From Humulus lupulus (Eukaryota; Streptophyta; Magnoliopsida; Rosales; Cannabaceae), in NCBI RefSeq assembly GCF_963169125.1, contig NC_084795.1, positions 277,646,122 through 277,710,121 on the forward strand: a DNA stretch of 64,000 nucleotides, read 5' to 3'. The position numbers and the translations under genes are program-made. The notes beneath the pieces are model-generated. The model ran no database searches. It worked only from the letters and a program-made list of their open reading frames with translations, and had not been told where the DNA came from. This document shows positions 3,358 through 64,000 of the stretch, in pieces. Each line of letters opens with the position of its first letter. Positions within the stretch are counted from its first letter, which is position 1.

Positions 3358-3610
3358 GGTCTAGAATTAACTGTCGGCGTTGGGGTCAATAGCGACACAT
3401 TTTAACTGTCGGCATTGGTCTCGAATTAACTGTCGGCGTTGGGGCCAATAGCGACAGTCAAAAGCAACGGCAACAGTTATTAGCTGTCGGTGTTGGTCTC
3501 TATGCCTACAGTTTTTAACTGTCGGCGTAGAGTCACACTAAGCAATTACGACAGTCAACAGAGTTGACTGTCGTGGTTAGGTGTCGGGAAAGCCCAGTTT
3601 TGTAGTAGTG
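3358..3610. mobile_element. CACTA (En/Spm) transposon terminus, family A
   Basis: The right end reads, on the minus strand, CACTACTACAAAACTGGG, a CACTA-type terminal repeat. Inward of it are repeated subterminal blocks 'actgtcggcg' and 'agcgacagt' in both orientations, which is the expected transposase-binding architecture. Only one end is recognisable. No transposase is present, so this is a fragment or a non-autonomous copy. Confidence 0.7.
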
Positions 3611-3676
3611 AGTGAGAGTGAGGGTGAGGGTGCGGCGACGGTGGCGGTGCGGCTACAATCAGCTGGCTGAGATCTA

Positions 3677-3716
<40 letters not shown>

Positions 3717-3930
3717 ACGGCGACGGTGGCGGTGAGGCTGAGATCGAGAGTGAGGGTGAGGGTGGGGGTGAGGGTGCAGCGGCGATGAGGCTGAGATCGA
3801 GAGTGAGAGTGATAGTGAGGGTGCAGCGGCGACGGTGGCGGTGAGGCTGAGATCGAGAGTGAGGGTGAGGGTGCAGCGGCGGTGAGGCTGAGATCGAGAG
3901 TGAGAGTGAGAGTGAGGGTGAGGTCTGCAG
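3611..3930. repeat. GAGGGT-rich minisatellite
   Basis: The stretch is (GTGAGG)n-like sequence alternating with a longer unit containing 'gcggcgacggtggcggtgag' and 'gctgagatcgagagtgag', repeated about four times. It begins directly at the CACTA-A terminus. A 94-residue ORF on the minus strand is only a Ser/Pro/Leu-repeat reading of it. Confidence 0.8.
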
Positions 3931-3984
3931 TAATAAAGAAATCGAAACTATAAGGCAAAGAGGAAAATGAGGGTCTGTATCAGG

Positions 3985-4281
3985 GGCGACATTTTATAAT
4001 ATTAGGGGCGACGTGTCGCCCCTAATAATTTTTACAAATGGCGAAAATTTCTCGACATCAAGGGCGACTAATGATGTGTCGCCCCTGATTTCTAGAATAT
4101 TAGGGGCGACACGTCGCCCCTAATAATTTTCACAAATGGGGAAAATTTCTCAACATCAGGGGCGATTTATACCAATATCAGGGGCGACTAATGATGTGTC
4201 GCCCCTGATTTCTAGAATATTAGAGGCGACATATAGTCGCCCCTAATAAAGTCGCCTCTTAGACCAATATTTCTTGTAATG
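3985..4281. mobile_element. CACTA transposon terminus, family B
   Basis: The right end on the minus strand is CATTACAAGAAATATTGG, one base off the classic CACTACAAGAAA terminus. Inward are many copies of 'aggggcgac' and its complement 'gtcgcccct', often paired as small hairpins around 'acgtgtc' or 'atgatgt'. The subterminal word differs from family A, so this is a different CACTA family. The other end was not found. Confidence 0.72.
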
Positions 4282-14047: not shown

Positions 14048-14262
14048 TCTATCTCTCTCTCTCTTCTTCTTAATTTCTCTCTAGCTATCTTCGATTGCCA
14101 AAATGAGATAGATTGTAGTGCATGAGAAGCCAACAAGTACGTACTCTTATTCTGCATACCTTTTGCCAACTTATTATTGGGAAAGGAGAGAGAGAGAGAG
14201 AGAGAGAAAAGGTAACCTGTTACCTGTTACCTGTTACCTGTTGTTACCTGTTACCTGTACCA
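14048..14262 (-). promoter_or_regulatory. 5' leader and proximal promoter repeats of the KNATM-like gene
   Basis: Upstream of the ATG the minus strand has a GA-rich leader. At 14186-14208 there is a (GA)n tract, and at 14211-14262 about six copies of the 7-mer GGTAACA (minus-strand reading). No TATA box could be assigned with confidence. GA tracts and short tandem repeats at this distance (about 140-215 bp) are often regulatory, but a role here is inference. Confidence 0.45.
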
Positions 14263-35571: not shown

Positions 35572-35903
35572 AAGAAAGGGCAATAATGTTTTTCAATATT
35601 AAAACAGTAAAATAAAAAAAAATTGTAATGATAAATGTAAAAATCCCATATATATATCACAATTGAGTTTGGGCCTCAGTTAAATTTGTTGTAAATAACC
35701 CATGTTGCTTATGTTATAGAAAATCGCCAACATTATCTCATTCGAGCTACATGGGTTTACCATAAATAACACATGGTTACAATTTCTTTGGTGAGCTCAA
35801 AATTGATATACAAGAAATATCACAAACAATCTAGTGTTTTAGTCACAAATGTTAGAATATTATGGGCTTAAATTAATGTTTTAAAGTGTTTTAATTTATT
35901 AAA
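35572..35903 (+). repeat. LTR copy 2, left half (split by MULE-1)
   Basis: Homologous to 16310-16643. The last nine bases, tttattaaa (35895-35903), are the left target-site copy of MULE-1. Confidence 0.85.
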
Positions 35904-35958
35904 GAGAACTTAACATAAATATGGGAATCTTAACTAAACTTAACATATATATGGACAA
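35904..35958 (+). repeat. MULE-1 left terminal inverted repeat
   Basis: It pairs with 46232-46286. Both contain 'atatggga' and, further in, 'atatatatgg'. Identity is about 70% by eye. Confidence 0.8.
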
Positions 35959-36142
35959 AAAAATAATTAAGCTAAATATGGTAATACACGGTTAATACAA
36001 AAATATAAATATGGAATTCCCATAAATTAAACAAACAGATTCCCATAATTTTCTCGCCCACTGCCAATCAAGAAAATTTTTGTCCGCGTACAGCAATTCA
36101 TCGACCATTTTTTCCGATCACAGCTTCATATTCTCCATTGAT

Positions 36143-36242
36143 TCCGATCAAAATCCGATCAAGAACTGGTGGCTGCTACTCTCATCATCGTCTCCGATCA
36201 AAATCCGATCAAGAATTGGTGGCTGCTACTCTCATCATCGTC
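36143..36242. repeat. 50-bp tandem duplication in the MULE-1 leader
   Basis: Two nearly identical copies start at 36143 and 36193 with 'tccgatcaaaatccgatcaa'. They are in the 5' UTR of the transposase gene. Confidence 0.9.
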
Positions 36243-36976
36243 TCCTTTCTCCAGTCATCCAATTAAAAATTCAATTCAATTTCAGATCTTCTTCTTCTTC
36301 TTCTCCGGCAGATCTTCTTCTCCGATTACATCCCCTGCTTTTACGTTCGTTCACATCAGCAAAAGCAGAAATCCATCAACTTCTCTGATTTCTCAAACAG
36401 GTAAACAAATCTTTCTTCAAATATACGACATGCAAAATATTTACACAAAGAATCTGCAAATTACTTCCTGATAAAATTCTTGACTCAAACTACTTGTTTC
36501 AAAACTTTTTTAATTACACACGTGAAACCAGTTACATCACAAAAAAGTTCAACATTACATAATTCAAATATTACAAAATAATATAAAAATAACAACAAAA
36601 TAAATACAGAAACCAGTTACATACGAAAAATAATAATAATAACATTCTGCATAATAAATTATCATGAAAAATGTAAAAGTACAAACTGATTTATGATTAT
36701 GAAACCAGTTACACAATATAATTTTAACTTTGCATATTTGTAAATAAAAATAAAAAATAAAAATAAAAAGACAACACATTCACTAAAGTAACCAGTTACA
36801 CACACAAAAACAGAATTTAATGCAACATAAATAATTATGGAACCTGGAAAATAGTTCTCGATTCAGTAAAAGAAACCAGTTACTAAAATAATTTCAACAT
36901 TAATAATATTCATTCACTAACACAACAAGATACATTTTAAACATCACTAAAAATTATGTTGTGCTATATTGCAGAT

Positions 36977-39590
36977 ATGGAGACCATAATGACATTGATT
37001 CGTTTTGGAGGAAAATGGACAGATAGATATCAGTATGATGAGTACACCATGACTGGACTGATAATACCAACAAATTGTTCTCTAAACAATTTGGTTCATT
37101 TAGTGAAAACTGAAATAAAATGCAATATTCAAAATATTGAGCTGAGTTACCAGTTATTACCAGGTATGTCACCAATGAGATTACTCACTGACAATTCAGT
37201 CCTATTCTACATTGAGCTGAAAAAGAAGCAAAATGAAGTAACTGAGCTACCACTATGCATCACCACTATTGATCAAACAATAGCTGAAACTGTTCAACAC
37301 ACTACATATGAAGAAGAAACACAAAAACAGAACACAGATTTAGAAAAGCTAGTTCTTCAACTAAACAACGAGCAATCAGCTACAGAATTACAATATCACG
37401 AAGCAACCTACACGAGAAATAACCAGATACAAACCTTCCCAAATACTACAGACATAGATGATGATGTAGCAGAATTTATCATAGAGAGAACAGAAGAAAA
37501 CAAAAGAAAAAGAAAAGAAGAAACAGAAATTATAACTGATCATAAAATTTTCAAAGTTGAAGAAGGCCAGATTTATAAGGACAAAAAGCTCTTAAAATCT
37601 GCTCTATGTTATTATGCTATGATCCACAACTTCCAATTCAAGACAAAAAGATCTGAACCAAGAGAGTACCTGGTAACCTGTGTGGATGAAAATTGTAACT
37701 GGTTACTTAGAGCTTCAAAGTTCAGGAAAACAGATACATTTTAAATCAGAAAGTATGTAAAAACTCACACCTACTCCTTGGATATCATTATGGAAGACCA
37801 CAGGCAGGCTAATTGCAATGTCATTGGGGAACTAATAAAATCAAAATACATGTCAATAAAGAGAGTACACACACCACATGACATAATCAACGACATGCTA
37901 GATGATTTTGGTGTTTCAATGGGGTACCAAAAAGCCTGGAGAGCAAGAGAAAAAGCTTTAGAATTGGCAAGGGGAAACCAAGATGATTCATACCAAAAAC
38001 TTCTCATCTACCTTCACATGCTAAAAGTCTCGAACCCAGGTACAATTACACACCTGGTTACAAACAATACAGAACACTTCAAATATATGTACCTAGCATT
38101 TGCAAATTCCATCAAAGGATGGAAACACTGTAGGCCAGTCATTGTGATAGATGGAACTTACTTGAAGACATCATTTGGGGGAACTTTATTCACTGCTTCA
38201 ACAATGGATGCTAACAACAACATATTCCCATTAGCCTTTGGAATAGGAGACTCTAAAAATGATTCATCATGGTTATGGTTTTTCACAAAGCTAAAGGAGA
38301 CATATGGAGAAAGAGAAGGTACTGTTTTCTTCTTTATATTCTTATTGAAACAAACTAAACTCATAAAATTATCAGTTTAATAATAATCCAGCAATAAAAT
38401 AGAGAAAACAGTGTAAAAAAAAAAATTCATATAAATTAATGAAACCAGTTACTCAGTTAAGACATAATAACCAGTTACTCCATTGTGATTTTGCAAACAG
38501 GTATCAATCATTTCAGACAGGCATAAAAGCATAGAAAATGCTATAGACAATGTATACCCAAAAGCTTTCCAAGGAGCATGCATATTCCACCTGTTAAACA
38601 ACATTAAAGTCAATTTTGGTGTCCATGGGGAGGACCTAAACCTAAACTTTGTCAAAGCCGTAAAGGCATACAGGGTACAATCATTTGAGCACTACATGCA
38701 TGAAATAGACAAGATTGACACACGCATAAGACCGTATTTACAAAAAATTGGATATTTAACTTGGTCTAGATGCCATGCTCTAACAAGAAGATATATAATG
38801 ATGACATCAAATATAGCTAAATCAATAAATGCTGCATTGAAAGCTGCAAGAACGCTGCCAATCACTACAATGATGGAGGGCCTTCGAAGTTTAGTTCAAA
38901 AATGGGTATGGAAAAATGGTAACGAAGCAAACGGAACATTCACACAAGTAACAACAGATACTGAAACTGTGCTTAGAGAAAACTTTATTCGTGCCATTAA
39001 ATTTCAGGTACCTGACATATATTGAGCACTGAATATTATTTATCAAAACTTTTAGTAACCAGTTACTCAAAAATATCACAGTATCCAGTTTCTAACATGT
39101 GTTTCTCTACTAAAATAAACAGGTCTTCCCAGTAAACACTATACTGTATCAAGTTGTGGTTGAACAGAAAGGAAATTTTTTGGACAACCTAATGGAGAAA
39201 ACATGTGAATGCAAAAGATTCCAACAAGACGAAATACTGTGTGCACATGCAATAGCAGTATTCGCCAAAACACGGCTGAAAACATATGATTATGTTGCTA
39301 ATTACTACAAAACTACAACTATGAAAGCAACATATGACTCAACTGTTCATCCATTGCCAAATGAAAGCGAATGGACACTGCCAGAGACTTTAAACATAAT
39401 TTTCCTACCACCAAAATCAAGAAAACCACCAGGCCGCCCTAGAAGAAAAAGAATCAGATCTAGAGGAGAACCAAAGGTGCAAATAAAATGTGGAAGATGC
39501 GCGCAGCAAGGGCATAATAGAAAAACATGCAGGAATGAACCAATCCCAAAGCTGCGAAACACAACAAAGTCAAAGAAAATAGACAAATAA
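36977..39590 (+). pseudogene. MULE-1 transposase (mudrA-like, MULE + SWIM + CCHC)
   Basis: A 5' UTR intron (36401-36974, CAG/GTAAAC to TTGCAG) precedes the ATG at 36977. Exons: 36977-38318, 38501-39007 and 39123-39590. Order: N-terminal region beginning METIMTLIRFGGKW, a MuDR-type DNA-binding segment (GQIYKDKKLLKSALCYYAM), MULE transposase core (VIVIDGTYLK, then ISDRHKSI in exon 2), SWIM zinc finger (CECKRFQQDEILCAHA) and a CCHC knuckle (CGRCAQQGHNRKTC) with a basic tail. Faults: one in-frame TAA at 37742-37744, a phase mismatch of about 2 nt at the exon 1/2 junction, and Lys in place of the conserved Glu in the N-x-A-E-S-x-N block (NIAKSIN). The gene is nearly complete but probably dead. It would cut and rejoin the element ends. 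Confidence 0.88.
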
Positions 39591-40537
39591 TTTTCTAAAG
39601 AATAGATATACTACAATTTCAATATTTTCATTTGATGTAATAAAATTGTATCCTAATGTTTTCTACTTCAATAAAAGTACAAACTTTTTAAACATTTTAC
39701 ATTTTATAAACTTGATACTCAACTTCATGGTTCCAAACACAAAGATATTCCAAATCTGGAGACTCAAGTACCTGGTTACAACACATATTATAGAAGAAAA
39801 AAAACAGATACTATAAGTAAATTTAACAAACAACTACATATACATGTAACCAACGATTTAAAAACCTAATTATATAACCACAAATCTTTCACAAAAAACA
39901 AAAAAACATAAATATTATAAACTTGATGCTCAACTTCTAGGTTCCAACACAAGATATTCAAAAACTGAAAATTCAAGTACCTGGTTACAACACATAAAAA
40001 TATAAAAAAAAAAACAGTTACTATAAGAAAATTTAACAAACAACTATATATTAATAAAGCCAACTACTTAAAAAACCTAGTTATATAATCACAAATCGTT
40101 CACACAAAAAAAAAATACAACAAACATAAATAAATCAAAAAATAATTAAAAAAATAGAAATAAAAACTAAAGAAACAGTAACCAGTTACCTGAAACATAT
40201 AACTTTTACAATCTAACACAGAAGTAACCGGTTACACCATCTTCATACAATAATAATCGAAACCTATATGAAAAAAAAAACATGTACATAACAATATCTT
40301 CACACTTAAAAAAAAAAAATCACCAACTCTATTGAAAAAAAAACATACACATTAAAATAAAATACATTAAAAAAAACTTTATATTAAGCCAAAAGTTGAA
40401 ACCAATTCTTTACATTGACAAAAAAACATAAGTCCAGTACTAAAACAGTATCCAGTTACAAACCACAACTTCACTATTAAACAAAGAAAAAAAAAACATG
40501 GTCGTTAATACAGCTAAAAAAAAAAACTCCAACATCT

Positions 40538-43500
40538 CTACTTATAATTCCTCCTCCTCTTTGATTTCTTTGATGGAGCATCATCTTCTGTCTTGTACCC
40601 ACCAATCTGCTTCTTTTTTGCATGACTATACAAGTTAATGGCAAGATAATCACGATAGGTAGCAATTTTGGCAGCCATGTTGTTCGGGATGTCATCAATC
40701 TTCCCATGGATAAACAAATCAGCATACTTGATAACAAATACTCCACAATCACTGCAAAAAAAAAAAAAAAAAAACACAAAAACAACATATGAAATTCTTT
40801 AAAAACAAACAAAATAGAAAAATAAACAACAATATACAAAAAACCAGTTACTTACTTATCCTCTTGAAATGGCAAGTCTTTGGCAAAGTTAAAATCAATT
40901 GGATCCTTCTTCCCAACAGAATATGGACCAACATTCAAGTCCAAATCTTTCCTAGAACAATAAAAATCAAGAAAATCTAGAAAATATGGTAAAACAACAG
41001 AATAAGCCTTCACATATGGCAAAGCAATACTCTCATTCTTCTTCCTCGTCAAAGAATTGTAGACAGTTAACATCCTACTCTTAATGGAAAAGTGAATAAA
41101 AACCCAATGCAACTGAACCTTCACATGCACAGGAAAAAGAACATGATCCACATCCACCCAAGGAGTGTTACAAAACAAATATTCACCAATAATGTAATCT
41201 GAAATTAGGTTATCAAAACGAATGCTGCTTGAATCACATTTGGCTGCCACAAAGTTATCATACAAACCCTTGATAGTTGCATCAAACCAAGAGTCTGTAG
41301 TTGTAACCCTCTTGTTCAAACCATCAATCAACTTAATCTTCTTCCTCAAGTAATAAAAACATACATTTATCTGCTACAAAAAATAAATAAACATACAAAA
41401 GTTAGGAACCTGGATACTAGCCAATATATAATAAAAAAAAACAATTTACACACAGTACTAAAAGGAACCTGGTTACTTGCCTTAACCATGATCAACAACA
41501 AAAACAAAACATCTAAACAAACAAATACTAATTAATAAACATTATACCAAGAACCTGATTACTAGCCAATATATGATAATAAAAAAACAAGTTACACACA
41601 ATGCTTCAAAGAACCTGGTTACTACCCAAAATTTAAAAATAATTTACACACAGTACTAAAAGGAACCTGGTTACTTGTCTTAAACATGATCAACAAAAAA
41701 AAAAACATCCAAACAAACAAATACTAATAAATAAACATTATAACAAGAACCTGGTTACTTACAGTGTCCATAAGGTCCTCCCCACAAGTTTGAAGCTTGT
41801 AAAACCACATTTTCTCAGAAAATTTTTAACAAAAGAATAATCCATTGGTGGATTGATAATGTTATTGACATCAGAAAATTTATTCTTCCTTCAAAACAAA
41901 AAATATATATATATTAACAAACAATTAAATATCAAGAATAATAATATTAAACAAAATATAAAAAAACATACTTATTCTTAAAATTCATTTTATCCTCAAT
42001 CCAATAAATATAATCCAGGCAATCATTCTTTGAAACATTCTGCCCAATTTCATTTTCAAATGGAAGCAATCCTCTAACAATCACCACTGCCTCTCCCTTC
42101 CTCTTCACAGTTTCTTTTACTTCAGAAGAACCAAACTCAGTAACAAAAGGAGATTTGACATGAGTACTAGGTTTAGGCTCCCTCTTTTCAATAGCAACAG
42201 GAACCTCATCATCATCACCAACCATCACAACCTTCCAATCATCCTTACTCCCACTAAATATCTTTTCTCCTTTTGCATACTTAACAGTTTTATCAATAAC
42301 ACTCAAAATCTCTGGATCCGCATATACTTCTTCAAAACTTAAACCAACTGAACTAAACTCAGGCTTCTTTGTAAAATCCTATAATGAATAAAAATAAAAT
42401 CAATTACAACAAATTCAATTTTAAATAAAATAATACAAGAAACAAAAACAAAAATAAATTACAAAACCTTATCTCCATCCACAACATTTGACAACTCCAA
42501 CCCAGAATAAACAACATCAAAATTTTCATTTAAATCATTCTCGACACCCTAAAAGAAATAATGAAACTGGTTACAACAGTGACTGGTTACACTAAACAAC
42601 TACAAAAACACAACATACTATTAAGAAACATAAACCAGTTACCCTACTACCATCAGACTCTTCAGCTGAATCATTTCCACAATCCTAGCCAAAAAAAAAA
42701 AACAATCTGGTTACAACTTAAAATGGTTTAAAAAAACAATAAAGCATAAAAACAAACAAGTTACCTTAGAATCATCAGAAATAGGACTGGAAACATTATC
42801 AAAATCAGCTGGCTTTTCCCCTTCATTAAAACCAGCACTTTCATCACTTGTATTTGCAACTTTTTCAGAATTTTTTGCAACAAATTTTGCAATCATTGCA
42901 GATAAATCACTGAGTTTCCCCATGAACTCAGATCTCATAACTGCAATGTCACTAATAATAGTTTCTTGGCATGCTTTTATTGATGAGATTGATTCACAAA
43001 TCAATCTCAACTTTTCACTATCAACCTAAAAAAACAAAATAAAATACTTTACAAAACAGCCAAAAAAAAACATAAAAAGAAACCTATAAATTTAAAAAAA
43101 ATATATATATTTTTTTTTAACTAAAACAAACAACAAAACCAACCAATACCTGGGTACCCGGACTACTGTCTCCATCTTCAGCACACACCTTCGACAAGTA
43201 TAGAAGCTCAAACTTAAACTTCTTTACTGCCAGTTTCTTTCTCTCCTCAGAAGACGGATAGACATTCAGGATAGTCAACTGAATAAATTAAAAATATATA
43301 TATACAAAATCAAGAAAACTGGTTACCATCAACTGAAACCAGGTACACAAAAAAAATCCAAAAATGAATAAAACAAATTTAGCAAGAAACCAGTTACAAA
43401 ACAAAAAGATTATACCTTCTGATTGTTGAAAACCTTTCCCACCAAGTTTGCATAGAAGGCATTATCTGTACTCTTCCAATTCAACAAACGTGGAAATTTT

Positions 43501-45194
43501 TTCCCAACCCGTTGACAAAACTCAGGACTCAACTCAGCTATACTTTCATATATCCATACAAGAAAAGTAATGGGAAACCCAAGAAGTTTCTAAGGGTGAA
43601 GGCCAACCTTCCTATCAATGAACAGTCCATCAAAAATTTTATTCCCACCCTTCAAAGCAGTTTTCAAATAATGAAAACTCCTATCCCATACAAACTTGCC
43701 AAAACTAATATTTGCTAAATCAGAAAAATCTCGATCAACCATCTCAAAAAAGAAATCATCAACCAACTTATCACTAGTATAGTCGTACAAATAGTTAACT
43801 AGGATATGAACTATACCCAATTTGACAACATCCTCATCATCAACTAGATCCTTACTAATAAAAGCATTTCGTAATTCAGACTTTGACACCTTACCAACAA
43901 AACGGCCAAATATTTTTTTCTTAAACAAAACTTTCTTTTTTTGAAAACGACTTAAATCAAAATCACCATCACATCTAAGACCCGTAACTAGAGCAAACTC
44001 TTCAATAGAAAACCTACACACTCAACGACCAAGCTTAAACCACATTTCCTCTTCCTCCCTCTCATGAGAGACCTCTCTCAATAACACAAGTTGGGCAAGT
44101 TGAGTTTGAAAATGAATATCACATACTTCTAAAAAGTGCCCAAATGGGGTCTTCTTAAACAATGATTTCTGACTTTTCGTCAACTTAGATTTCAAGTCAG
44201 TAATGACACTCTTGTCATTAAAATGTTGAATCTTACTACCAAACCTCTTGGAGGGGTTTATCTTTAAATGAGCCTGCAGAAAAAAACAAAACAATTAAAC
44301 GTGTAACCAGTTTCAAAAAATATAAACATGAAAAATTGATAAGTACTTTACATTTATAAAACCACTTATATGTATTTAACTTTGTATGGTTGAAATATAC
44401 ATATAAAAAAAAAACAATTCATTCACTAAGGTAACCAGTTAAAAACTCATTAAGCAAAATCGTTCACTGTTATCTGCAAAGTAACCAGGTACATATATAA
44501 CCAGGTACACATGAAACCACGTACAAAAAAAAAAAAAAAACAGTTTAACAACAAAAATAACAATAAAACAAACACAAAACATAATTGAAAATTATGCAAA
44601 TTAACTACAAATCTACAAGAACCCAGATACACAACCATAAAAAAATAAAAATAAAAACAGAATCCACATGTAACCAGGTACAAAAAAAAAAAACAGTTTA
44701 ACAACAAAAGAAAGCACAACAATAACAATAAAACAAACACAAAACAGAATTGAACATTATGCAAATTAACTACAAAACTACAAGAAACCAGATACACAAC
44801 CATAAAAAAATAAAACAAACAGAATCCACCGAATGTGAAACACAATAACAGAAACATAAACAGATGAACAAGTTTTTATGATAATAATTAAAAAAAAATA
44901 AACACATACCACAACATGTTTAGTCTCATGAGAATCATCTCCAGCATCCTTACTACCAGATGCACACGAATCCTTCGTCTGTTTAACAGTGGAAGGCGAT
45001 TTACTTGTCTTCCTTGCAACAGAGGAAGGGGATTTACTTTTCTTCCTTGCAACAGACTTCAAATGTGTAATGTTACTCCTTTGAGGAAGAATCTCACCAA
45101 TATCATCCCCTACATTCTTCGATTCATCCTCTACTATACTAGAAATTTTCTTCTCAAAACCAGAAACACCACCGGTTTCTCCAGAGTGATCCAT
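40538..45194 (-). pseudogene. MULE-1 DUF1985 / Ulp1-like C48 protease gene (10 exons)
   Basis: Minus-strand exons with GT-AG borders and matching phases: 45194-44910, 44273-43416, 43278-43150, 43025-42765, 42684-42643, 42548-42468, 42378-41972, 41888-41763, 41370-40856 and 40751-40538 (about 970 codons). Exon 1 starts MDHSGETGG and holds KSKSPSSVARKTSKSPS. Exon 2 is a DUF1985 domain (VCRFSIEEFALVTGL). The middle exons encode an acidic, helical linker. Exons 8-10 form a Ulp1/C48 domain: EKMWFYKLQTCGEDL, the His in VQLHWVFIHF, Gln in LPFQED and Cys in NDCGVFVIKYADLF. The Asp position reads VYNSL, so Asn replaces Asp. Faults: TGA at 44022-44024, TAG near 43590 and a 1-nt loss in exon 8. Related Ulp1-like TE proteins are predicted SUMO-type proteases. 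DUF1985 links it to VANC anti-silencing factors. Confidence 0.87.
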
Positions 45195-46231
45195 GACAGA
45201 ACTTCGAAATGCACTGCATAAAAAAAAAACACAAATGAAAAAAGAATAACAGATATACATATATATAGAGTACAAATTACAAATAACTATCCATAAACTT
45301 CCCAAAAAATAAACTGATCAAAAACTGACAAAAACCCCACTAAAAAACTAACGATAAAATCGTGCACCAAAAATAAAAACCACCATTAACACAGATTAAA
45401 AAACAACCACCCACGACAGAAAAATATATAGTACAAAGCAAAATTAACAATCAATATACATTAAAAAAATAAAAAAAATAAACCCTGAAACCGAGTACTC
45501 ACCGATACGAAAACACCACAAAGAGGCACAAATCCACAACAAGAAACTTATAAAAATACTAAGAAAAAGAAAAAAAAAAAAAAAAGAAGAAATCAACACA
45601 AAATACCAAATGCTGAAGGAAAGAAAAAATTCGAACCAAACGATATATAAAAAACGTGATACTGAAGCAAACGGAAAAATACATACCTGAAACCAGGTAT
45701 TCACCGAGACGAATACACGCACAGATGGCACAAAATCGACAACAAAATACTCAAATAAACCCTAAAACAGAACGAAAACTAAGAACAAATATCACCCCTG
45801 AAGAAAACGTGATGCTGAATAAAATAAACTAATAAAATTGAGAAAACGTGATGCAGATAAAAACGTGATAGAGCATATGTACTCAAGTACCTGCATGCAT
45901 ACTGGGAATTGATTTCCTTACAAAAAAAAATTCAAAACAATAAAAATAAAAACACATAAAATGACTGAAAAGCCCTCACAAAAATCCACATAAATGCATA
46001 ATAAACAAATACTGAATTAAAATTTTCTCACAAAAATGTTTACCAAAATAATAAAAAAATAATAATAATAAAAAGACAAAAATTCCCTCATAAAAATACC
46101 CTTATAGAATAAAAAAAACGTAAACAAAAAAATATGGGATACAGAAACAATATTTTGATAAATATGGCAAAACAAAACCCATAAAAAAGGAAAACAACAA
46201 AAAAAAACCATAAAAAATGCACACACAAAAA

Positions 46232-46286
46232 AAAGCCATATATATCAAATTTTATTGAATTTTCCCATATTTCATGTAAATTCCTC
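46232..46286 (-). repeat. MULE-1 right terminal inverted repeat
   Basis: Inverted partner of 35904-35958. It is followed by the target-site copy tttattaaa (46287-46295). Confidence 0.8.
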
Positions 46287-46650
46287 TTTATTAAAATGTG
46301 GGTTGATGAATAGTTCTTTGTCGATTTAGCCCATGTAATTTTAAGTGATTTTTTATTAATGGACTTAGCATCAATAGTAGTCTAGTTAAAGCAAAAGTGT
46401 GAGTTTCTTAGTTAACTGAAGTATTTGATGAAGAGATTCAATCCAACTAGGATTTTGTAACTAGGTCCCCTCCTTAACTCTATAAATATTTATTGTCTCA
46501 TCATAATTGTATGTTCTGAAAAACTACTTCAGAAATAGAAATAGGGAGGAAGACTTAGTAAATTAGTATTGTACTAATCAATCTATATATTATCTCAATT
46601 ATCTCATGAATGGTCAATCGATCATGTATATCTTCTATGAATTTCTAACA
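46287..46650 (+). repeat. LTR copy 2, right half, with promoter and end
   Basis: Homologous to 16635-16986. It contains 'ctctataaatatt' at about 46480 as TATA region and ends in ...TTCTAACA. A Met-initiator-type primer site (TGGTATCAGA) follows at 46655, so this is a 5' LTR of a Copia-like element. Confidence 0.8.
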
Positions 46651-46860
46651 CATGTGGTATCAGATTGCCAATTGTATGTAATTTAAGACCTATTATTTGT
46701 GTTTAATCATGTGATTAATTAGAGATTCAAAATTAATAGATTTCATTAATGTTCTATGAATTTCTAACATGTGGTATCAAATTGCCAGTTGTATGTAATT
46801 TAAGACCTATTATTTGTGTTTAATCATGTGATTAATTAGAGATTCGAAATTGATTTCATT
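46633..46860 (+). repeat. 119-bp tandem duplication spanning LTR end and primer site
   Basis: The block from 46633 ('ttctatgaatttctaaca', then the primer site and leader) is repeated from 46752. The second primer-site copy reads 'tggtatcaaatt'. Each block holds 'acctattatttgtgtttaat'. Confidence 0.88.
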
Positions 46861-49244: not shown

Positions 49245-49640
49245 GGTTTGTTTGACATTGTTTTCTATTTTTTATTTTCAAAATTGTGTTTTCAGAAATG
49301 AGAACAAAAACAGTTTTTGTAGTTCAAAAAAAAAACAAGAGATGTTTAGTTAATGTTTTCTAAAAATATTTTTTTAGTGTTTTTTTTAAAAAAAAAAATC
49401 TTAAATAAATATATTTACAAAGAGAAAAATATTTTAAAAGTTTGTAATAAATAATGTGAAAGAAAAAGTGATGAAAAATAATGAGAGAGAAAGTGATGTT
49501 AGAGAAAGTGATGAGAGAGAAAGTGACGTAAGATAATAATAATTAAAAGGTTATGTGAGAAAAAAAAAATTGAGAACAACTAAACACAATTTTTTGTTAT
49601 TCTTAAATTTTTTTGTTTTTTGTAACTTTGTTTTTAAAAA
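49245..49640. mobile_element. MITE-like repeat, left part (split by MULE-2)
   Basis: 'gtttgacattgttttc' near 49250 reappears inverted just right of MULE-2 ('gaaaacaatgtcaaacac', about 57755). This suggests a small inverted-repeat element of 'gtgtttgacattg' type into which MULE-2 jumped. The last nine bases, ttttaaaaa (49632-49640), are the MULE-2 target-site copy. Limits are approximate. Confidence 0.45.
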
Positions 49641-49753
49641 GGAAAATTTGACTTTTTATGCTTAATGGGGTGGTGTAATTCAAAATAATGCTAGGCATTT
49701 TTATCATTACAAAATAATGCCAATTCATTTTAGGATACCCAAAATACCCCTCT
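49641..49753 (+). repeat. MULE-2 left terminal inverted repeat
   Basis: It pairs almost perfectly with 57624-57734. The inner end is 'atacccctc' on this side and 'gaggggtat' on the other. Confidence 0.92.
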
Positions 49754-49947
49754 CACAACTATCTCCTCTCTTCCCTCCTCCTCTCTTCCTTCTTCCTCAC
49801 TCTCTTTCACTCACCTCACCTCAACTCACACCACCACTAAGAGCACCACGGTAGAACCCCATCGAGCAAGGGACCGCCACTAAGAAAGCCATTTGTAGAG
49901 GGGATCAAGACCAAAGTAAGGATTGAGAAATCTTGGAGAAAAATTTC

Positions 49948-52900
49948 ATGGGTAAGCAATTTTTTCTTAAATACTTGGATTAGTGAAGTTTCCTTTAAAC
50001 ATTTTGGGCATTTCGAATAGATCTGAGCAATATTTGCACATTTTTTTGGATTTTTTCTGGTTTTTTGGCGATCTGCGTTTTCTGGAAATTTTTTGGGTTT
50101 GGGTTGTGCTCGATGGTTGCTCGATGCTTGCTCGATGTAGGCTCGATGGCACATCAATTTTAGGGTTGCATGTTCTGCTCGATGGTTACTCGATACCTAC
50201 TCGATAGGTGCTCAATGGTAATGTGCATTATCACTATTTCATGCATGCTCGATGGTTGCTTGATGCCCGCTCGATGCAGGCTCGATGGCACATCAATTTT
50301 AGGGTTGCATGTTCTGCTCGATGGTTACTCGAAACCTACTCGATGGTAATGTGCATTATCAATATTTCTTGCATGCTTGATGGTTGCTCGATGCATGCTC
50401 GATGGAACATCAATTTTCACGGTTGAATGTTGTGCTCGATGGTTACTCGATACCTAGTCGATGGGTACTCGATGGTAATGTGCATTCCCACTATTTCATG
50501 CATGCTCGATGGATGTTCGATGCCTGCTCGATGCAAGCTCGATGGCACATCATTTTTTACGTTGCATGTTGTGCTCGATGGTTACTCGATACCTACTCGA
50601 TGCAAGCTCGATGGTAATGTGCATTCTCACTATTTCGTGCATGCTCGATGGAGGCTCGATTCCTGCTCGATGCAGGCTCGATGATCATGTTTTTCAGCAT
50701 CATTAAAATACTATTTCCTACCATCTGTTTTTCAGCTAATTGTATTTGTGTTTTTTTATTTCAGGTTCTACTGTTTACGTATTTGTTTCTTACAATGGTG
50801 TTTGGGAAATGCATGGTAGGAAATGGTATTTTAAGGATGCTGAAAGTGAAGTGATACCAGTAGAGAATGGTGTCACTTAGTTGCAACTACTTGACATACT
50901 GCACGAGACATTTCAGGTGGATAGAGAGGTGTATGAATTGAAACTCAAGGTGCCATACGTATGCAGCGACCAACCATTTGCACCGGTTCAATTGAGGAAT
51001 GATCGTCAAGTTCGTGTATTCTTAGGAATAAGCTTGAAAGAATGGGTAGTCTTATGTGTGACTCCAGTTAAGAAGAATGTCATATCAGATCCTTCTCCTA
51101 GTGTGAACAAAAAAGACACAACCAGTGTCGATCCATCTCCTGCAGGTAGCAGTTACAAGCATCTTAGCGAGGTGGGCACTTTTGTTCCAATTATTGATCT
51201 GATGGCTACTATTCAACTTGATATACCACAACGAGGTCCCACAGGTGTGCTTGAGGCATATGAGTACGATTCCTATGTGAATGATGATCCAGTTGGTAAT
51301 TGCTTTGAAGATAATGTTGATGGTTCCGAGGATGACTCGTATTATAGTGCAAATGTTTCAAATGAGGAGTTAGACATTTCCCAAGCCCAACAAGTAGAAG
51401 AAGAGTCAGGACTGCCTTTTGCACAGGCACACCTCCTAACTCAAGGACGCTGAGCACCTGCTCGAAGCAGTAATCAACTTGCTAGGACAGAAGATAACAC
51501 TGGGTGGAGGGAGACAATTGTATCAAGAGAAGATCACACCAGATGGAGTGCCCCAATGTTTACAAAAGAAGATATTGAGGCATCTGCTAAAACCCATTCC
51601 TCATCATCTGGTGGACCAATGGGAGAAATATATGTTGGGAAGACTTTTGAGGACAAGATTGATTTAAAAACCAAAGTTGCTCTATTTACAATGGAGAATA
51701 ACTTTGAGTATATGGTGAAAAAGTCTGGTACTGACGTGTGGTATATTACATGCAAAGATCCTGACTGTTGTTGGAGACTGAGAGGGAAAAAACTACCAAT
51801 GTCCCCCATGTTTTAGATCACGGTACACAAGAGCGTACACACATGCTCACTAGAAGTGCGACAAAAAGGTCATCGTCAAGCTGCATCGTGGGTCGTTGGA
51901 CACCTCATAAAGAACAAATATGCAGTAGATGGGACCAGTTACATGGCAAACAACATAAAGGAGGATATGAAGAAAAAGTTTGGTATTGATATGAGTTATG
52001 AAAAGGCATGGAGATGTAGAGAGAAGGCACTTACGTATGTTAGGGGGACATATGAGGATTCGTATTGCAAGTTGCCATCCTACTTGCACATGTTCCAGCA
52101 AAAGAATCCAGGTACAATTACTGATTTTGTCACTGAAGATGGTCATTTCCTATATTGCTTCTTTGCCCTTGGAGTTTGTAGGAGGGGATTCAGATTTTGT
52201 CGTCCTGTGATATGTGTGGATGGCACATTCTTGAAGAATAAGTACGGTGGCCACATGCTATGTGTCGTTGCTTTGGATGCGAATAGTCATTTATATCCAA
52301 TTGCATTCGGGTTGGTGGATAGTGAGAACCACAACTCGTGGAAATATTTCATGACGAAGTTGAAGGAAGCCATTGGGGACGTTGATGACTTGGATTTCGT
52401 GTCAGATAGGCATGCTAGTATTATTCATGCTCTAGAGGCTGTCTTTCCTGATGCCTACCACGGCGCATGCTACCATCACATCAGTATGAATGTGAAAGCC
52501 AAGTTCAAGACTGATCACTGTCACAGTGAGATGTGGGTAGCAGCCTATGCATGGAAGAAGACCGAATTTCTAAAGCATTTTGAAAATATTAAGCGAATGG
52601 ATCCTCTTATAGCTTCCTATTTGGAGGAATTGGTTTCGATAAGTGGTCTCGTCCTTTCTTTCCTGGAAAACGTTATGATATAATGACAAACAACTACGCT
52701 GAAAGCTTCAACAACAAGACCAAGGATGCAAAAACCTTTCCAGTTACAATTTTTTTAGAATTCATTCGGTTCACACTAGTCTTGGTTTTCTGAACGACGT
52801 AGTGTGACAGAGAAGACTACCATCAAATTATCCACCCTGATGGAGGCAGATGTATCAAACAATGCTGACAAAGGAAGGTTCATGAATGTCTATGCCCTTG

Positions 52901-53330
52901 TTCAATTTGAGTTTCATGTAACTGGTGCAAACAGCGATGCTGAGGTGAATTTGATGACGAAATCATGCTCAAGTGGGGTATTCCAGCTCATAGGCACACC
53001 TTGTCCCCATGCAGCTGCAGCGCTATAGAGCGTGGAGTGAACCTTTACTCTTTGTGTTCACCGTTTTACACCATTGAGTCATGGAGGAATTCGTACAAAG
53101 AAACCATTTACCCAACTGGGAACGAAGATGACTGGATACTTCCAGATGACATTAAGAATATGGTAGTTGGTGTACCCATAGAGAAACAACAAGTTGGCCG
53201 TCCAAAAAATCCAAAGCTAGGAAGACCAAGGACAAACCGTTGGCCATCCGGCGGGGAAAAATCAGTTACAATGCGTAAGTGCAGTAAATGTGGTGGTCGT
53301 GGCCACAACAAGTCCTCATGCAAAGCTTAG
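49948..53330 (+). pseudogene. MULE-2 transposase (mudrA-like, MULE + SWIM + CCHC)
   Basis: The likely start is a four-base first coding exon, ATGG (49948-49951, donor GGTAAGC). It is spliced over a 0.8-kb motif-filled intron to 50765 and opens M-G-S-T-V-Y-V-F-V-S-Y-N-G-V-W. The frame then continues as an N-terminal region (LLDILHETFQVDREVYELKL), a MuDR-type segment (VGKTFEDKIDLKTKVALFTM), the transposase core (VICVDGTFLKNKYGG, FVSDRHASI, NNYAESFNN), SWIM (CSSGVFQLIGTPCPHA, where CxC has become CxS) and a CCHC knuckle (CSKCGGRGHNKSSC). Faults: stops at 50878, 51451 and 51814, and frameshifts near 52629, about 52780 and just after SWIM. It is more decayed than MULE-1. The residue choices resemble MULE-1 but the two are clearly diverged families. 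Confidence 0.87.
50105..50690. repeat. MULE-2 motif array 1 (TCGATG), in transposase intron 1
   Basis: About 30 copies of TCGAT, mostly within (T/A)GCTCGATGG or ACTCGATACC. They are arranged in a higher-order unit of about 117-140 bp with anchors at about 50167, 50307, 50424 and 50563 ('tgcatgttctgctcgatgg'). Units also share 'ggtaatgtgcattatcacta'. Confidence 0.93.
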
Positions 53331-53514
53331 CTTTGAGTTTATTTTTTGTTGTATTTTATTTAAACTTGAAGTTGAAGGTTATTTGTTGTTTTGTTTTTTT
53401 ATTGTCGTTAATGAATTTTGGTCGTTAATTGTCGTTAATAAAAAGATGCTCGACTCAAAAAAATTTCTTAATAACCTAAATTTTAAGCAAATAAATATAA
53501 CAACAAGAGAATGT

Positions 53515-56500
53515 TCAATGTCTAACATTCTGATACCATAAGTCAACTGTCCATTTGTTTCTGAACAACTCCATGTTGTCATCGCAAATCGTGTCAAGTG
53601 GTAGCCTACCCAATAAGTGTTCGATGTGCTTGATGGCGTACACACCACAATCTCCAATATGAACGAAACATAAATTGCATTAGTAACAAAATCAACATAG
53701 AATTTAATTTAAAAAACTTGAATAAAAACTAGAATTTTGATTACTTGACTTTGGTTTGGGGTACTGAATCAACTGTCATGCGGTGCACGTTGAACTCTTT
53801 GCATCTTTTAGCTCCAGGTGGAATTGTCAACCGAGGGTCATCCTTGAAAAGTTGTGACTGCAATAACAACGATGGGAACAAAGTAGACCATGACTTCATA
53901 AATGATTGTAGTTGTTTATCACTTATCACTGTCACATCCGAATCATAAACATTCAGAGTTCAAGTAGAAATGGAGGCTTCAACTGCAAATCAATGCGCTT
54001 GAAGGTAGTTCTGGCACCAATATATAGTGTCTACTCCCTTCCACGATGACAGAAATTGATTGTCAATTCCCGTAATCATTGATATCACATCTGAATCCCA
54101 CAAAAACCTTTTCTTATCCGCTTCCTTGGCATTTTGATATGCATCATAACGGGCTGGTACCACTTGTGAGAACATAATATTCATCACAACAGCATCTTGC
54201 GGATACGCCCCGGGATAGAACTGTCGACGCCTACATAGCATATGCTTGGCTGCATCAATATGCTGCAAAAATGATAGGAAAGCAATTAATCAGTCTATCG
54301 AACCATTATTGAAACCCCTATCGAAACCCGCATCAAACCCCATGAACCCAAACCATCTGCCTATCAAAACCCCTATCGAAACCTGCATCAAACCCCTATC
54401 GAACCCCATGAACCCAAACCATCTGCCTATCGAACCCCATCGAACCCCTATCGAACCCCATGAACCCAAACCATCTGCCTATCAAAACCCGTATCGAACC
54501 CCATGACCCAAACCATCTACCTATCGAACCCCATGAAACCAAACCATCTGCCTATCGAACCCCTATTGAACCCCATAAAACCCCTATTGAACCCCATGAA
54601 CCCAAACCATCTGCCTATCGAAACCCTTATCGAAACCCGCATCGAACCCCTATCGAACCCTATGAACCCAAACCATTTGCCTATCGAACCTCATTTAATG
54701 CTACTACAACCCACAGTGAACCCACATTGAACCCTATCAAACCCATTGTTTATACCAGATAATAGATATTAATGAAATTACTTACCCCATCATCGATCCA
54801 AAACTGTGGTGTCTTCATCGTCAGAAACCAACTTGGACCATACACACTAGTTTGGACATCCCTCTTCGTCTTGTTCGGAATATCTCCAAGCAACCACTTG
54901 CCGACCGTCCTGTACTGTGTAGCAAGTGGCTTCTTTAGAGGGTCGAGGACTAATGGCACGTCATCAATCGCATCCAAACGAGCTTTCTTTCTGGTTGGGT
55001 CGGTGTAGTCTTCAAATTTCTTAGGTTTGCGTCTTTTCCTCTTGGCCAATTCAAACTCTACACCAGCAACATCCCCAAGTTCTAAAATAGCAACACCTGG
55101 GGTCTCAGGATTTGCTGTGAATACTATCGGGGGAGGAGTGCCTGTGTCATGTGAGACAAAATCATCTGGGAGGTCAAGTGAGTCGGAATCAGAATCATTT
55201 GGAAGATCTTGTACGAATGTCAAGATCTTATTGACAGCATCCATGATGACCGCCTGGTTCTTTAGGATGGTATCTTGACGACTCTCGACTCGCTCCAACC
55301 TCTCCAACACCTCCCGTAAATCAAGTTGATCAGGATTGGGGTGTACCAATGGGGTAGGGGCCGAGGGTGTGGGGCCGATGGGGACTGGGGTATCCTCATC
55401 ATCAGGGCCATCAACAAAAATATTGGCTGCCTTCACAACCTCCGCAACTATCTCTGCCACCTTCTCAAAATCAGTGGGAGTTTCTACCTCTTCTTCTTGG
55501 CCCAACCCGGGATACAAGGGAGCATCACCCTGTGTCAGAGCGCTATAATAATCTATCTCCGAAGGCGGGGGCTTCAACATGGACAACACAATCAACTACA
55601 TCAAACACAAAGCATTAAGTTAGTTTGAAACCACCAAAGAATACTCTATTTTGACATAATATAGCAGAACTTACACTCGTCTTCTTGAACATCGGAGCAA
55701 GGTCGGCCTTCGAAATAGGACGCTCCTTATTGCTCGACCAACTGAGCATCCTCGGAAACTAGTTTCCATGGTTAATACCATACTCACGTGCAAACTATTG
55801 GATGGCTTCGTATGCCCAATACTGCAATGCAGGGACATAACCATACAAACTGTATTTTGCTTCTTTCTGTTACCCCTTAACTTCCTTCTTCTTCTCATAG
55901 TTCCTCTTCTGATGATGCATGTCTTTTTTACAGGAATCCATAAGCTTGTTAAAAGACACCTTCCCCCATGGGTAAGTAAAGAAGTACTCAGTGTCCTCCA
56001 CCATCTTCAGCGAATCTATCCAGACATTTAACTTGCCCTCTCGTGCAAGTAAAACCCCCTCAACAAAGAAACATAGGCCCAACTTGTAGGCATCTTCAAC
56101 TACAGTGCAGTTTTTTAAAGCAGCCTCCAAATGCATTATCTTCACTATTTCTTCATCATTAAAGTACTCCTTGATTAAGCGGTCACTAGTCAAGTGTTTC
56201 TTCAAATCAGTCTCAGATGGCCTGGAACTAAAGTTTAACCCCGTAACCAAAGCAAACTCGCCTCTACCAAATCTACAGGGTCTAGATCCCAAATGTAAAT
56301 GCAACTCATCCTCTTTGATGCACTGGATCTTGCGCAACATTAATTGATGTATGAGAGATGCAGAGAAGTCTAACTTCTCAGCCATGAAAAATTGTTTGAA
56401 AGGGGATTCCTTCACCCTTTCTATCAACCCGAGCTCCTCAAACTTGTCCTTGATTATTTTAAAGTAACCATTGCCCCTATATGTGACTCGTCCAGGAAAG

Positions 56501-56532
56501 TGATATGTCAAGGGTAAAAGAAACTTTGGCAT
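53515..56532 (-). pseudogene. MULE-2 DUF1985 / Ulp1-like C48 protease gene
   Basis: Recognisable minus-strand exons: 56532-55675 (858 nt), 55595-54786, 54262 to about 53745, and a last piece ending at 53515. The upstream first exon was not found. The 858-nt exon carries DUF1985 (PCRFGRGEFALVTGLNF), then YSLYGYVPALQYWAYEAI. The next exon is an acidic, helical linker (LREVLERLERVESRQDTILK) with a basic segment (KRKRRKPKKFEDYTDPTRKK). The C48 part has HIDAAKHMLCRRR, VYDSDV-type sequence and GDCGVYAIKHIEHLLG with the catalytic Cys. Faults: three stops near 55872-55755, stop and frameshift around 53960-53990, and an unclear last acceptor. The domain order is as in MULE-1. It lies tail-to-tail with the transposase gene, ends 185 bp apart. 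Confidence 0.85.
54295..54745. repeat. MULE-2 motif array 2 (TATCGAAC), in a DUF1985-gene intron
   Basis: About 15 copies of ATCGAA occur in units such as 'ctatcgaaccccatgaaccc' followed by 'aaaccatctgcc'. The array fills the intron 54785-54263. ORFs read through it are Pro/Asn repeats without meaning. Confidence 0.92.
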
Positions 56533-56604
56533 CTGCAAAAAATAAAGAGAAAAATAATACAGTTAAACAAAGTCGCTTGAAAAATCCATCAATAAACATA
56601 CATG

Positions 56605-57125
56605 CAACCATCGAACCCCTATCGAACATGCATCGAACCCCTATCGAGTACCCACCGAACACCCATCGAACAACCCTAGAGCATGCATCGAACCCAACAT
56701 AAAACCCAATCCATCGAGCATGCATCGAACCCCCATCGAGCATGCATCTAATTTCTTAGGTTTAAACCTGGAACCCATAATGGGCCTACCCTATGGGTTC
56801 CTAATTGAGCATGCATCGAATGACCATCAAGCATGCATCGAACACCCATCGAACCCCAATCGAGTACCCACCGAACACCCATCGAACCACTATCGAACAA
56901 CCCTAGAGCCTGTATCGAACCATCGTCGAACCCAACATAAAACCCACTCCATCGAGCATGCATCGAACCATGATCGAGCATGTATCAAATCACAGAAGCA
57001 CAAACCTTAAACCCCAAATGACCTAACCTATCGAACCCAATCGAGTATGCATCGAACCCTCTAAATGCCTACCCATCGATGCTCATTGAACCCCCCATCG
57101 AATAACATCGAACCCCCCATCAAAC
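56605..57125. repeat. MULE-2 motif array 3 (CATCGA(A/G)C), upstream of the DUF1985 exon
   Basis: About 25 copies of ATCGA, chiefly 'gcatcgaac', 'ccatcgagc' and 'tatcgaac', lie immediately upstream of the DUF1985 exon, in what should be its 5' intron. The orientation is opposite to array 1, so relative to each gene's transcription the motif reads the same way. Confidence 0.92.
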
Positions 57126-57623
57126 CATCAAGCAACATAAAAAAAACCAAGCAAAAACTCACAGTTGTCTTTCAACATACCCATTCCAAAATACTCAAAC
57201 AAAGCATATCAATATGCTCAAAACAATTCGTAAACTATGCAATAAACGAAAAAAGTCACAACATTCACACAAAAAATTAAAAAAATATATATATACATAT
57301 AATCATATATATATACACACCATATGCACATCTGAATACAATAGGGAGATCGACCTTAGTGGGTCAGGAACCGTTGAGGCGGAGGAGGGAGGACGGAGGT
57401 CTCGGGAAATCGACTCGGAGTTGGGTTCAGGTCTCGGGGAATCGACGCCGTGCGGGTCTCGGGGAATTTACGAGGGAGTTGGAGACAGACCGTCGGTCTC
57501 GGTGGGCGGTCTCGGGCAGTCGGCGGTTGTCGTGCGGGGAGTCGGAGGATACACTGAAAGAGAGAGAGGGAAAACTGTAGAGTTCCGAGAGAAAGAGAGA
57601 GAGGGAAAACTGACGAGACAAAT

Positions 57624-57734
57624 GAGGGGTATTTTTGGTATCCTAAAATGAATTGGCATTATTTTGTAATGATAAAAATGCCTAGCATTTTTTTGAATTA
57701 CAACCTCATATTAAGCATAAAAAGTCAAATTTCC
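57624..57734 (-). repeat. MULE-2 right terminal inverted repeat
   Basis: Inverted partner of 49641-49753, followed by ttttaaaaa (57735-57743). Confidence 0.92.
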
Positions 57735-57844
57735 TTTTAAAAATTGTTTTCTGAAAACAATGTCAAACACCCTTATTTATTTTCAGAAAATAGTTTTTAA
57801 GTTTTAAAAACAAAATATAGTTTTTTAGTTAAGTAGCCAAACAC

Positions 57845-63684: not shown

Positions 63685-64000
63685 CACAACAAGGAAAATG
63701 GGCTTTTACTTCGGTTTTTAAACTTGATTTACTTCGGTTTTCGCTAAAATTCGCAACCGCAGTAGTTCGAAGCGAAGTAAAAACTAGCTAAAAATCGAAG
63801 TAGAATGCCCACTTTCTACTTCGGTGTTTACATAATAACCGAAGTAGAAAGTGTATATACGCTAGCATCCTGGGCACTTTCTACTTCGGTTTTTAGGTAA
63901 AACCGAAGTAAAAATGGTACTTTCTACTTCGGTTGTTAGGTAAAACCGAAGTAAAAGGTCTACTTTCTACTTCGGTTTTGTCTAAGAACCGAAGTAAAAA
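63685..64000. mobile_element. CACTA transposon left terminus, family D (runs off the window)
   Basis: CACAACAAGGAAAATGGGC at 63685 differs by one base in the first ten from CACTACAAGG-type termini. It is followed by a dense array of ACTTCGGTTTT and its complement AAAACCGAAGT, spaced so that adjacent copies can pair. This is subterminal CACTA architecture. The body lies beyond 64000. Confidence 0.75.

Follow-up and report, generated by a model that had tools for sequence, protein, structure and literature searches.

A Mutator-like element of hop carries a dispersed 12-bp word of its own, a candidate landing site for its VANC-like protein

What reads a short word that one transposable element carries some forty times in its own DNA? 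The question is raised by a Mutator-like element (MULE) of Humulus lupulus, here called MULE-1, in contig NC_084795.1 of assembly GCF_963169125.1. The window, i.e. the whole stretch analysed, comprises 64,000 nucleotides (positions 277,646,122 to 277,710,121, forward strand). A first-pass annotation of these letters had noticed the repeated word and proposed that it is the landing site of a DUF1985 protein encoded by the element, as for the anti-silencing VANC proteins of Arabidopsis. The analysis presented here indicates that the word is probably such a site, and a second element in the window, with a similar layout and a different word, helps to judge the proposal.

The word was refitted as a weight matrix and is 12 bp long, G[T/A]AACCAG[T/G]T[A/T]C. 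There are 44 sites of at least 13 bits in MULE-1, one in the second element, MULE-2, and two in the rest of the window, that is three in the 53.6 kb outside MULE-1 that served as the comparison region. Order-1 Markov sequence modelled on MULE-1 contains 0.22 such sites on average and two at most (200 runs). The roughly 40 copies first reported, in both orientations over nine kilobases, are thus confirmed, and equal density in unrelated DNA is not observed inside the window. Matches to GTAACCAGTTAC with at most two mismatches number 47 in the window, against 4.3 expected and a maximum of 11 over 100 shuffles; 40 of them lie inside MULE-1, at 35 distinct places because five places match on both strands. 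With a loose cut-off of at least 8 bits, there are 49 sites in MULE-1 and 23 raw matches outside. Circularity was avoided by training the matrix on one half of MULE-1 and scanning the other: the unseen halves (approx. 5.2 kb each) gave 20 and 19 matches, versus four and two in the whole outside region.

An unseeded count of 10-mers led to the same word, the highest z scores in MULE-1 belonging to ACCTGGTTAC (nine copies) and AACCAGTTAC (13 copies), both absent from the other 53.6 kb. A control on the best 10-mers of overlapping 8-kb segments found equal z scores elsewhere, either in MULE-2 or in compact arrays, each extending over a few hundred bases (3979-4200 within 3368-4200, 14215-14249 and 63707-63987). 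The earlier statement that no comparable density exists elsewhere therefore holds for the MULE-1 word itself, but MULE-2 and the compact arrays have enriched words of their own. The MULE-1 word is distinguished by its 9-kb spread, not by its z score. One candidate outside the element was rejected: a tandem run of GTTACCT at 14212-14260 comes within one or two mismatches of the word and is a simple local repeat outside the MULE-1 system.

Single-linkage clustering of the flanks reduced the 44 sites to 25 separate contexts, over which conservation is sharply bounded: the mean is 1.36 bits per column within the 12 bp and about 0.10 in the flanks, where the top column reaches 0.30. The description of the copies as dispersed rather than tandem is partly right, as some copies do lie in local duplications. 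Strand and subtype run in blocks along the element, some of them visible duplications, which is what local growth of arrays by duplication should leave behind. 'Near-palindrome' proved a loose term, since both perfect arms, GTAAC and GTTAC, occur in five of the 44 sites and the strongest columns are the central, asymmetric CCAG. CAG, a symmetric CHG methylation site, forms the core of 42 of the 44.

MULE-1 is a complete element (35904-46286) bounded by the inverted ends GAGAACTTAACATAAATATGGG and GAGGAATTTACATGAAATATGGG. Its terminal inverted repeats (TIRs) are approximately 51 bp long and 77 per cent identical (35904-35954, plus strand; 46236-46286, minus strand). The 9-bp target-site duplication TTTATTAAA adjoins them, identical on both flanks (35895-35903 and 46287-46295). 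The first site starts at 36524 and the last occupies 45689-45700 (plus strand), 597 bp short of the right end, so the span given by the first-pass annotation, 36524 to 45700, has the right site coordinates but falls short of the element.

The transposase gene (36977-39589, plus strand) matches Pfam families DBD_Tnp_Mut (2.5e-9), MULE (5.6e-11) and SWIM (4.2e-9), which identifies the product as a Mutator-like transposase. In our exon model its exons are 36977-38318, 38501-39007 and 39123-39589; the frame is interrupted by one in-frame TAA (37742-37744), and the junction of exons 2 and 3 is out of phase. The gene is preceded by an intron in the 5′ untranslated region (36401-36974, plus strand; borders CAG/GTAAAC and TTGCAG/AT by eye) with five copies, all on the plus strand, at 36524, 36609, 36701, 36788 and 36872, i.e. 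84-92 bp apart. Four more copies are found in the two inner introns and seven in exon 2. The spacer (39590-40540) holds five copies, two of them inside a 211-bp tandem duplication. Beyond it lies the VANC-like gene (40541-45194, minus strand; 10 exons in a hand-made model), with a DUF1985 and an Ulp1-like Peptidase_C48 domain; it is disrupted by two stops, TGA (44022-44024) and TAG (43590-43592), and changes frame near 41823. Among its introns, 41371-41762 has six copies, all on the minus strand, all ending in GGTTC and lying in a local duplication, and 44277-44910 has eight, all on the plus strand and of mixed subtypes.

In our exon model, introns make up 2,610 bp (25% of MULE-1) and contain 30 of the 44 sites (p 2.4e-9, assuming independent sites). 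Exons, with 5,233 bp (50%), contain eight sites, and other noncoding DNA (2,540 bp) six. Within the window, the motif is dense in the element, nearly confined to it and mainly noncoding (36 of 44 sites). Transposase exons 3 and 4 have no site and the exons of the VANC-like gene have one. The first-pass placement of the copies chiefly in introns, the 5′ leader intron and the spacer is right for the 30 intronic and five spacer sites, but eight are exonic. When the 25 contexts are counted instead, 13 are intronic, eight exonic and four other.

The joined VANC-like gene matches DUF1985 at 1.1e-17 and Peptidase_C48 at 4.6e-16 in Pfam, in agreement with the DUF1985 protein recognized at first sight. 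The DUF1985 region, with stops written as X, was compared with the chains of the PDB. The top match is Arabidopsis VANC21 (9lnj, E 1.6e-6, query residues 25-255), which bears out the association of this domain with VANC; the runner-up, DEPDC5 (5.5e-4), aligns over a short stretch only. To judge from these alignments, the gene is homologous to VANC21. DUF287 was not found in the joined gene at E ≤0.1, and when a protein database was searched with the same query, none of the 7,992 candidates scored reached E ≤0.001. In a weak alignment with SENP1 (E 0.81), the Asp of YDS, which we take to be catalytic, is paired with an Asn of the MULE-1 protein. AlphaFold models of the DUF1985 regions of MULE-1 and MULE-2, made from two-row alignments, were unusable (mean predicted local distance difference test scores 36.1 and 41.5).

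MULE-2, a second complete element overlooked in the first-pass annotation, came to light when the MULE-1 proteins were used as queries against the window. It lies 3.4 kb from MULE-1 (49641-57734, plus strand; 8,094 bp) and has the same layout, with the transposase on the plus strand and a DUF1985/Ulp1 gene on the minus strand. Its TIRs are about 145-150 bp long (85% over a 161-column alignment that takes in the 9-bp duplication), and its target-site duplications are TTTTAAAAA at 49632-49640 and 57735-57743. The transposase is 39 per cent identical to that of MULE-1 over 335 aligned positions. Pfam matches are MULE (1.7e-24), DUF1985 (7.5e-25) and C48 (8.8e-6, in one of three pieces of the 3′ part of the gene), and for an open DUF1985 frame of 220 residues the top PDB chain is again VANC21 (9lnj, E 6.3e-5). 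The element looks decayed, its genes being split across several reading frames.

The word of MULE-2 is approximately G[C/T]TCGAT[G/A], with 64 sites of at least 12 bits in MULE-2, none in MULE-1 and three elsewhere in the window. All but three of the 64 lie in three intron-like stretches, in the sense orientation relative to their own gene: 17 copies in the first transposase-gene intron (49952-50764, all plus; borders by eye), 21 in an intron of the DUF1985/Ulp1 gene (54263-54786, all minus; borders by eye) and 23 in a stretch preceding the DUF1985 start codon that reads as an intron or 5′ region (56533-57370, all minus). The arrays are close: among 92 sites of at least 9 bits, 49 of the 91 adjacent gaps measure 10-12 bp and 36 exactly 11, giving phasing p values of 1e-13 at 10.5 bp and 9e-17 at 11.0 bp, with the reservation that a tandem array does not supply independent gaps. 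The best period over all pairs is 11.7 bp. TCGAT, which contains a symmetric CG methylation site, is the core of 53 of the 64 sites, and nine of the 11 exceptions read TTGAT or TCAAT, as decay of methylated CG would give. If each DUF1985 protein reads its own word, a neighbour of like layout with a private word, such as MULE-2, is what one would expect.

MULE-1 and MULE-2 fit the VANC scheme because they combine related proteins, private words and mostly noncoding sites. On this basis we consider it probable that the MULE-1 word is the landing site of the family's VANC-like protein, acting in anti-silencing of the VANC type. The earlier proposal is supported by the homology to VANC21 and by a distribution like that reported for VANC21, the binding itself being predicted. 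We infer that the VANC-like protein would bind the word and that binding would remove silencing. The protein would land on the 12-bp word in introns and spacer; having many sites, it would coat copies of its own family, from which DNA methylation would be removed; both genes could then be expressed and the element could move.

Several observations weigh against this proposal. Eight of the 44 sites are exonic, seven of them crowded in transposase exon 2 (36975-38318), and in terms of separate contexts (13 of 25 intronic, eight exonic) the intron bias stands while the exon depletion is weaker. Local duplication accounts for part of the enrichment: a 211-bp unit is present twice at 39704-40119 and a 165-bp unit twice at 44508-44829, there are repeats within 41406-41759, and several word copies are inside these segments. 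The word occurs on both strands overall, in single-strand blocks (p 0.0008). Tested at a period of 10.5 bp, the 22 adjacent gaps are unphased (p 0.69); a period of 11.0 bp gives p 0.002, uncorrected for the choice of period. Enriched words in other stretches of the window require no VANC. Finally, both genes of this copy carry stops, so the sites here could serve only as a target for the protein of an intact relative.

The presence of the word on both strands and in one transposase exon, together with the lack of clear phasing, makes a different binding mode possible. MULE-1 might be read otherwise than the short, same-oriented, close arrays of VANDAL21 and MULE-2: its word is longer, at 12 bp, and has partial dyad symmetry, the copies run in either direction and for the most part lie far apart, and some are found in the transposase exon. 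The DUF1985/Ulp1 protein would then recognize single sites, perhaps as a dimer, and not phased arrays. We regard this variant as rather unlikely, roughly one chance among four.

Four other explanations of the word were weighed against recognition by the VANC-like protein. The first is neutral spread, in which a functionless word was copied by small duplications and conversion in an AT-rich element. The duplications at 39704-40119, 41406-41759 and 44508-44829, which hold several copies, speak for it, as does the clustering of site properties along MULE-1: strand clusters (p 0.0008), and so do two of the three word positions tested, 11 (p 0.003) and 9 (p 0.03), unlike position 2 (p 0.13). However, the flanks are unconserved over the 25 separate contexts, the word persists on either strand and also within transposase exon 2, and the pattern recurs in two elements with different words. 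Neutral copying appears very improbable.

A second explanation, to which we give the same low credence, is that the word binds the transposase of MULE-1 itself, at internal or subterminal sites. Many cut-and-paste elements have short terminal repeats that are regarded as transposase-binding sites, plant DNA transposons commonly carry short repeats specific to their family, and two compact arrays of other words in the window (3368-4200 and 63707-63987) have a terminal look by eye. The MULE-1 sites are instead interior and biased towards introns; the outer 620 bp at the left end and 597 bp at the right end hold no site of at least 13 bits, which leaves the TIRs without the word.

Marginally less credible still is a host transcription-factor site, e.g. 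of the MYB type, multiplied so as to recruit expression. AACCA and TAACTG are MYB-type cores, and AACCA and CAGTTA in the word resemble plant MYB sites, but MULE-2, of like layout in the same genome, has an unrelated word, and the MULE-1 sites extend over 9 kb, including introns and spacer distant from gene starts, with three in the other 53.6 kb. The least probable explanation is an RNA-level intron signal for splicing or intron-mediated enhancement: it would account for the strong intron bias, for the nine transposase-intron sites of MULE-1, all sense, and for the 61 sense sites in the three stretches of MULE-2, but the 21 intron sites of the VANC-like gene are nine sense and 12 antisense, and five sites lie in the spacer.

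Other repeats were seen in the window. The region 3368-4200 contains inverted and direct arrays of the ATTAGGGGCGAC and AACTGTCGGCG types, by eye the terminal parts of other DNA transposons. At 63700-64000, copies of TACTTCGGTTTT and AACCGAAGTA on either strand form an array that the end of the window truncates; by eye it resembles the subterminal repeats of another element. A 117-bp tandem duplication with 95 per cent matches (46633-46851) lies immediately to the right of MULE-1.

It was in Arabidopsis that sequence-specific anti-silencing by transposons was elucidated. In the present case, sequence alone points to a candidate word and the likely type of its reader protein for each of two adjacent elements in a single plant genome, giving two candidate protein-word pairs in which each element could act as a specificity control for the other. 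Saturation of an element with its own word is suggested as a means of spotting such systems in plant genomes that lack annotation. With the VANC21 structures 9lnj and 9lnk deposited, the two pairs could reveal how specificity shifts among DUF1985 proteins. Should the different binding mode be true, neighbouring elements would run anti-silencing with different grammars and not with different words alone.

The closest known system is VANDAL21 (Hiun) with VANC21 of Arabidopsis. As determinants, Sasaki et al. in 2022 reportedly named sequence, density and helical periodicity. Like MULE-1, VANDAL21 combines a MULE transposase with a DUF1985 protein and has a dense short motif in its own noncoding parts, some copies of which are within tandem units. 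By chromatin immunoprecipitation sequencing and electrophoretic mobility-shift assays, VANC21 occupies noncoding DNA of VANDAL21 within introns, between genes and at the termini; it recognizes YAGTATTAY in vitro and brings about a loss of methylation, the arrays are described as same-oriented, and VANC motifs spread via tandem repeats (PMC5735166). MULE-1 differs in its 12-bp word, which is unlike YAGTATTAY and occurs in both orientations, in its Ulp1-like domain and in its TIRs of about 51 bp; since DUF287 was not detected in its gene, it is not classed as VANDAL21-type. A likeness of CAG[T/G]TAC to YAGTATTAY and AGTTGTAC, seen by eye, was too weak and was not used.

VANC6 acts on other elements, whose targets carry AGTTGTCC/AGTTGTAC (PMC5735166). 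VANDAL6/8 with VANC6 is thus a related element with another private word and parallels the pair MULE-1 and MULE-2; by eye, AGTTGTCC/AGTTGTAC matches neither of the two words found here. Kaonashi (KIU) MULEs share with MULE-1 a DUF1985 gene with a C48/Ulp1 domain in the orientation opposite to the transposase. Ulp1-bearing VANCs (KIUs) act likewise according to a 2026 review (PMC13317346), and MULEs with TIRs and a ULP domain are reported for grapevine and melon (PMC2528002). Arabidopsis KI-MULEs are non-TIR elements, whereas both MULE-1 and MULE-2 have TIRs; MULE-1 is for this reason not classed as an Arabidopsis-type KI-MULE, although its C48 domain is on the minus strand. We file it as a putative VANC-type, DUF1985/Ulp1-bearing (KIU-like) MULE.

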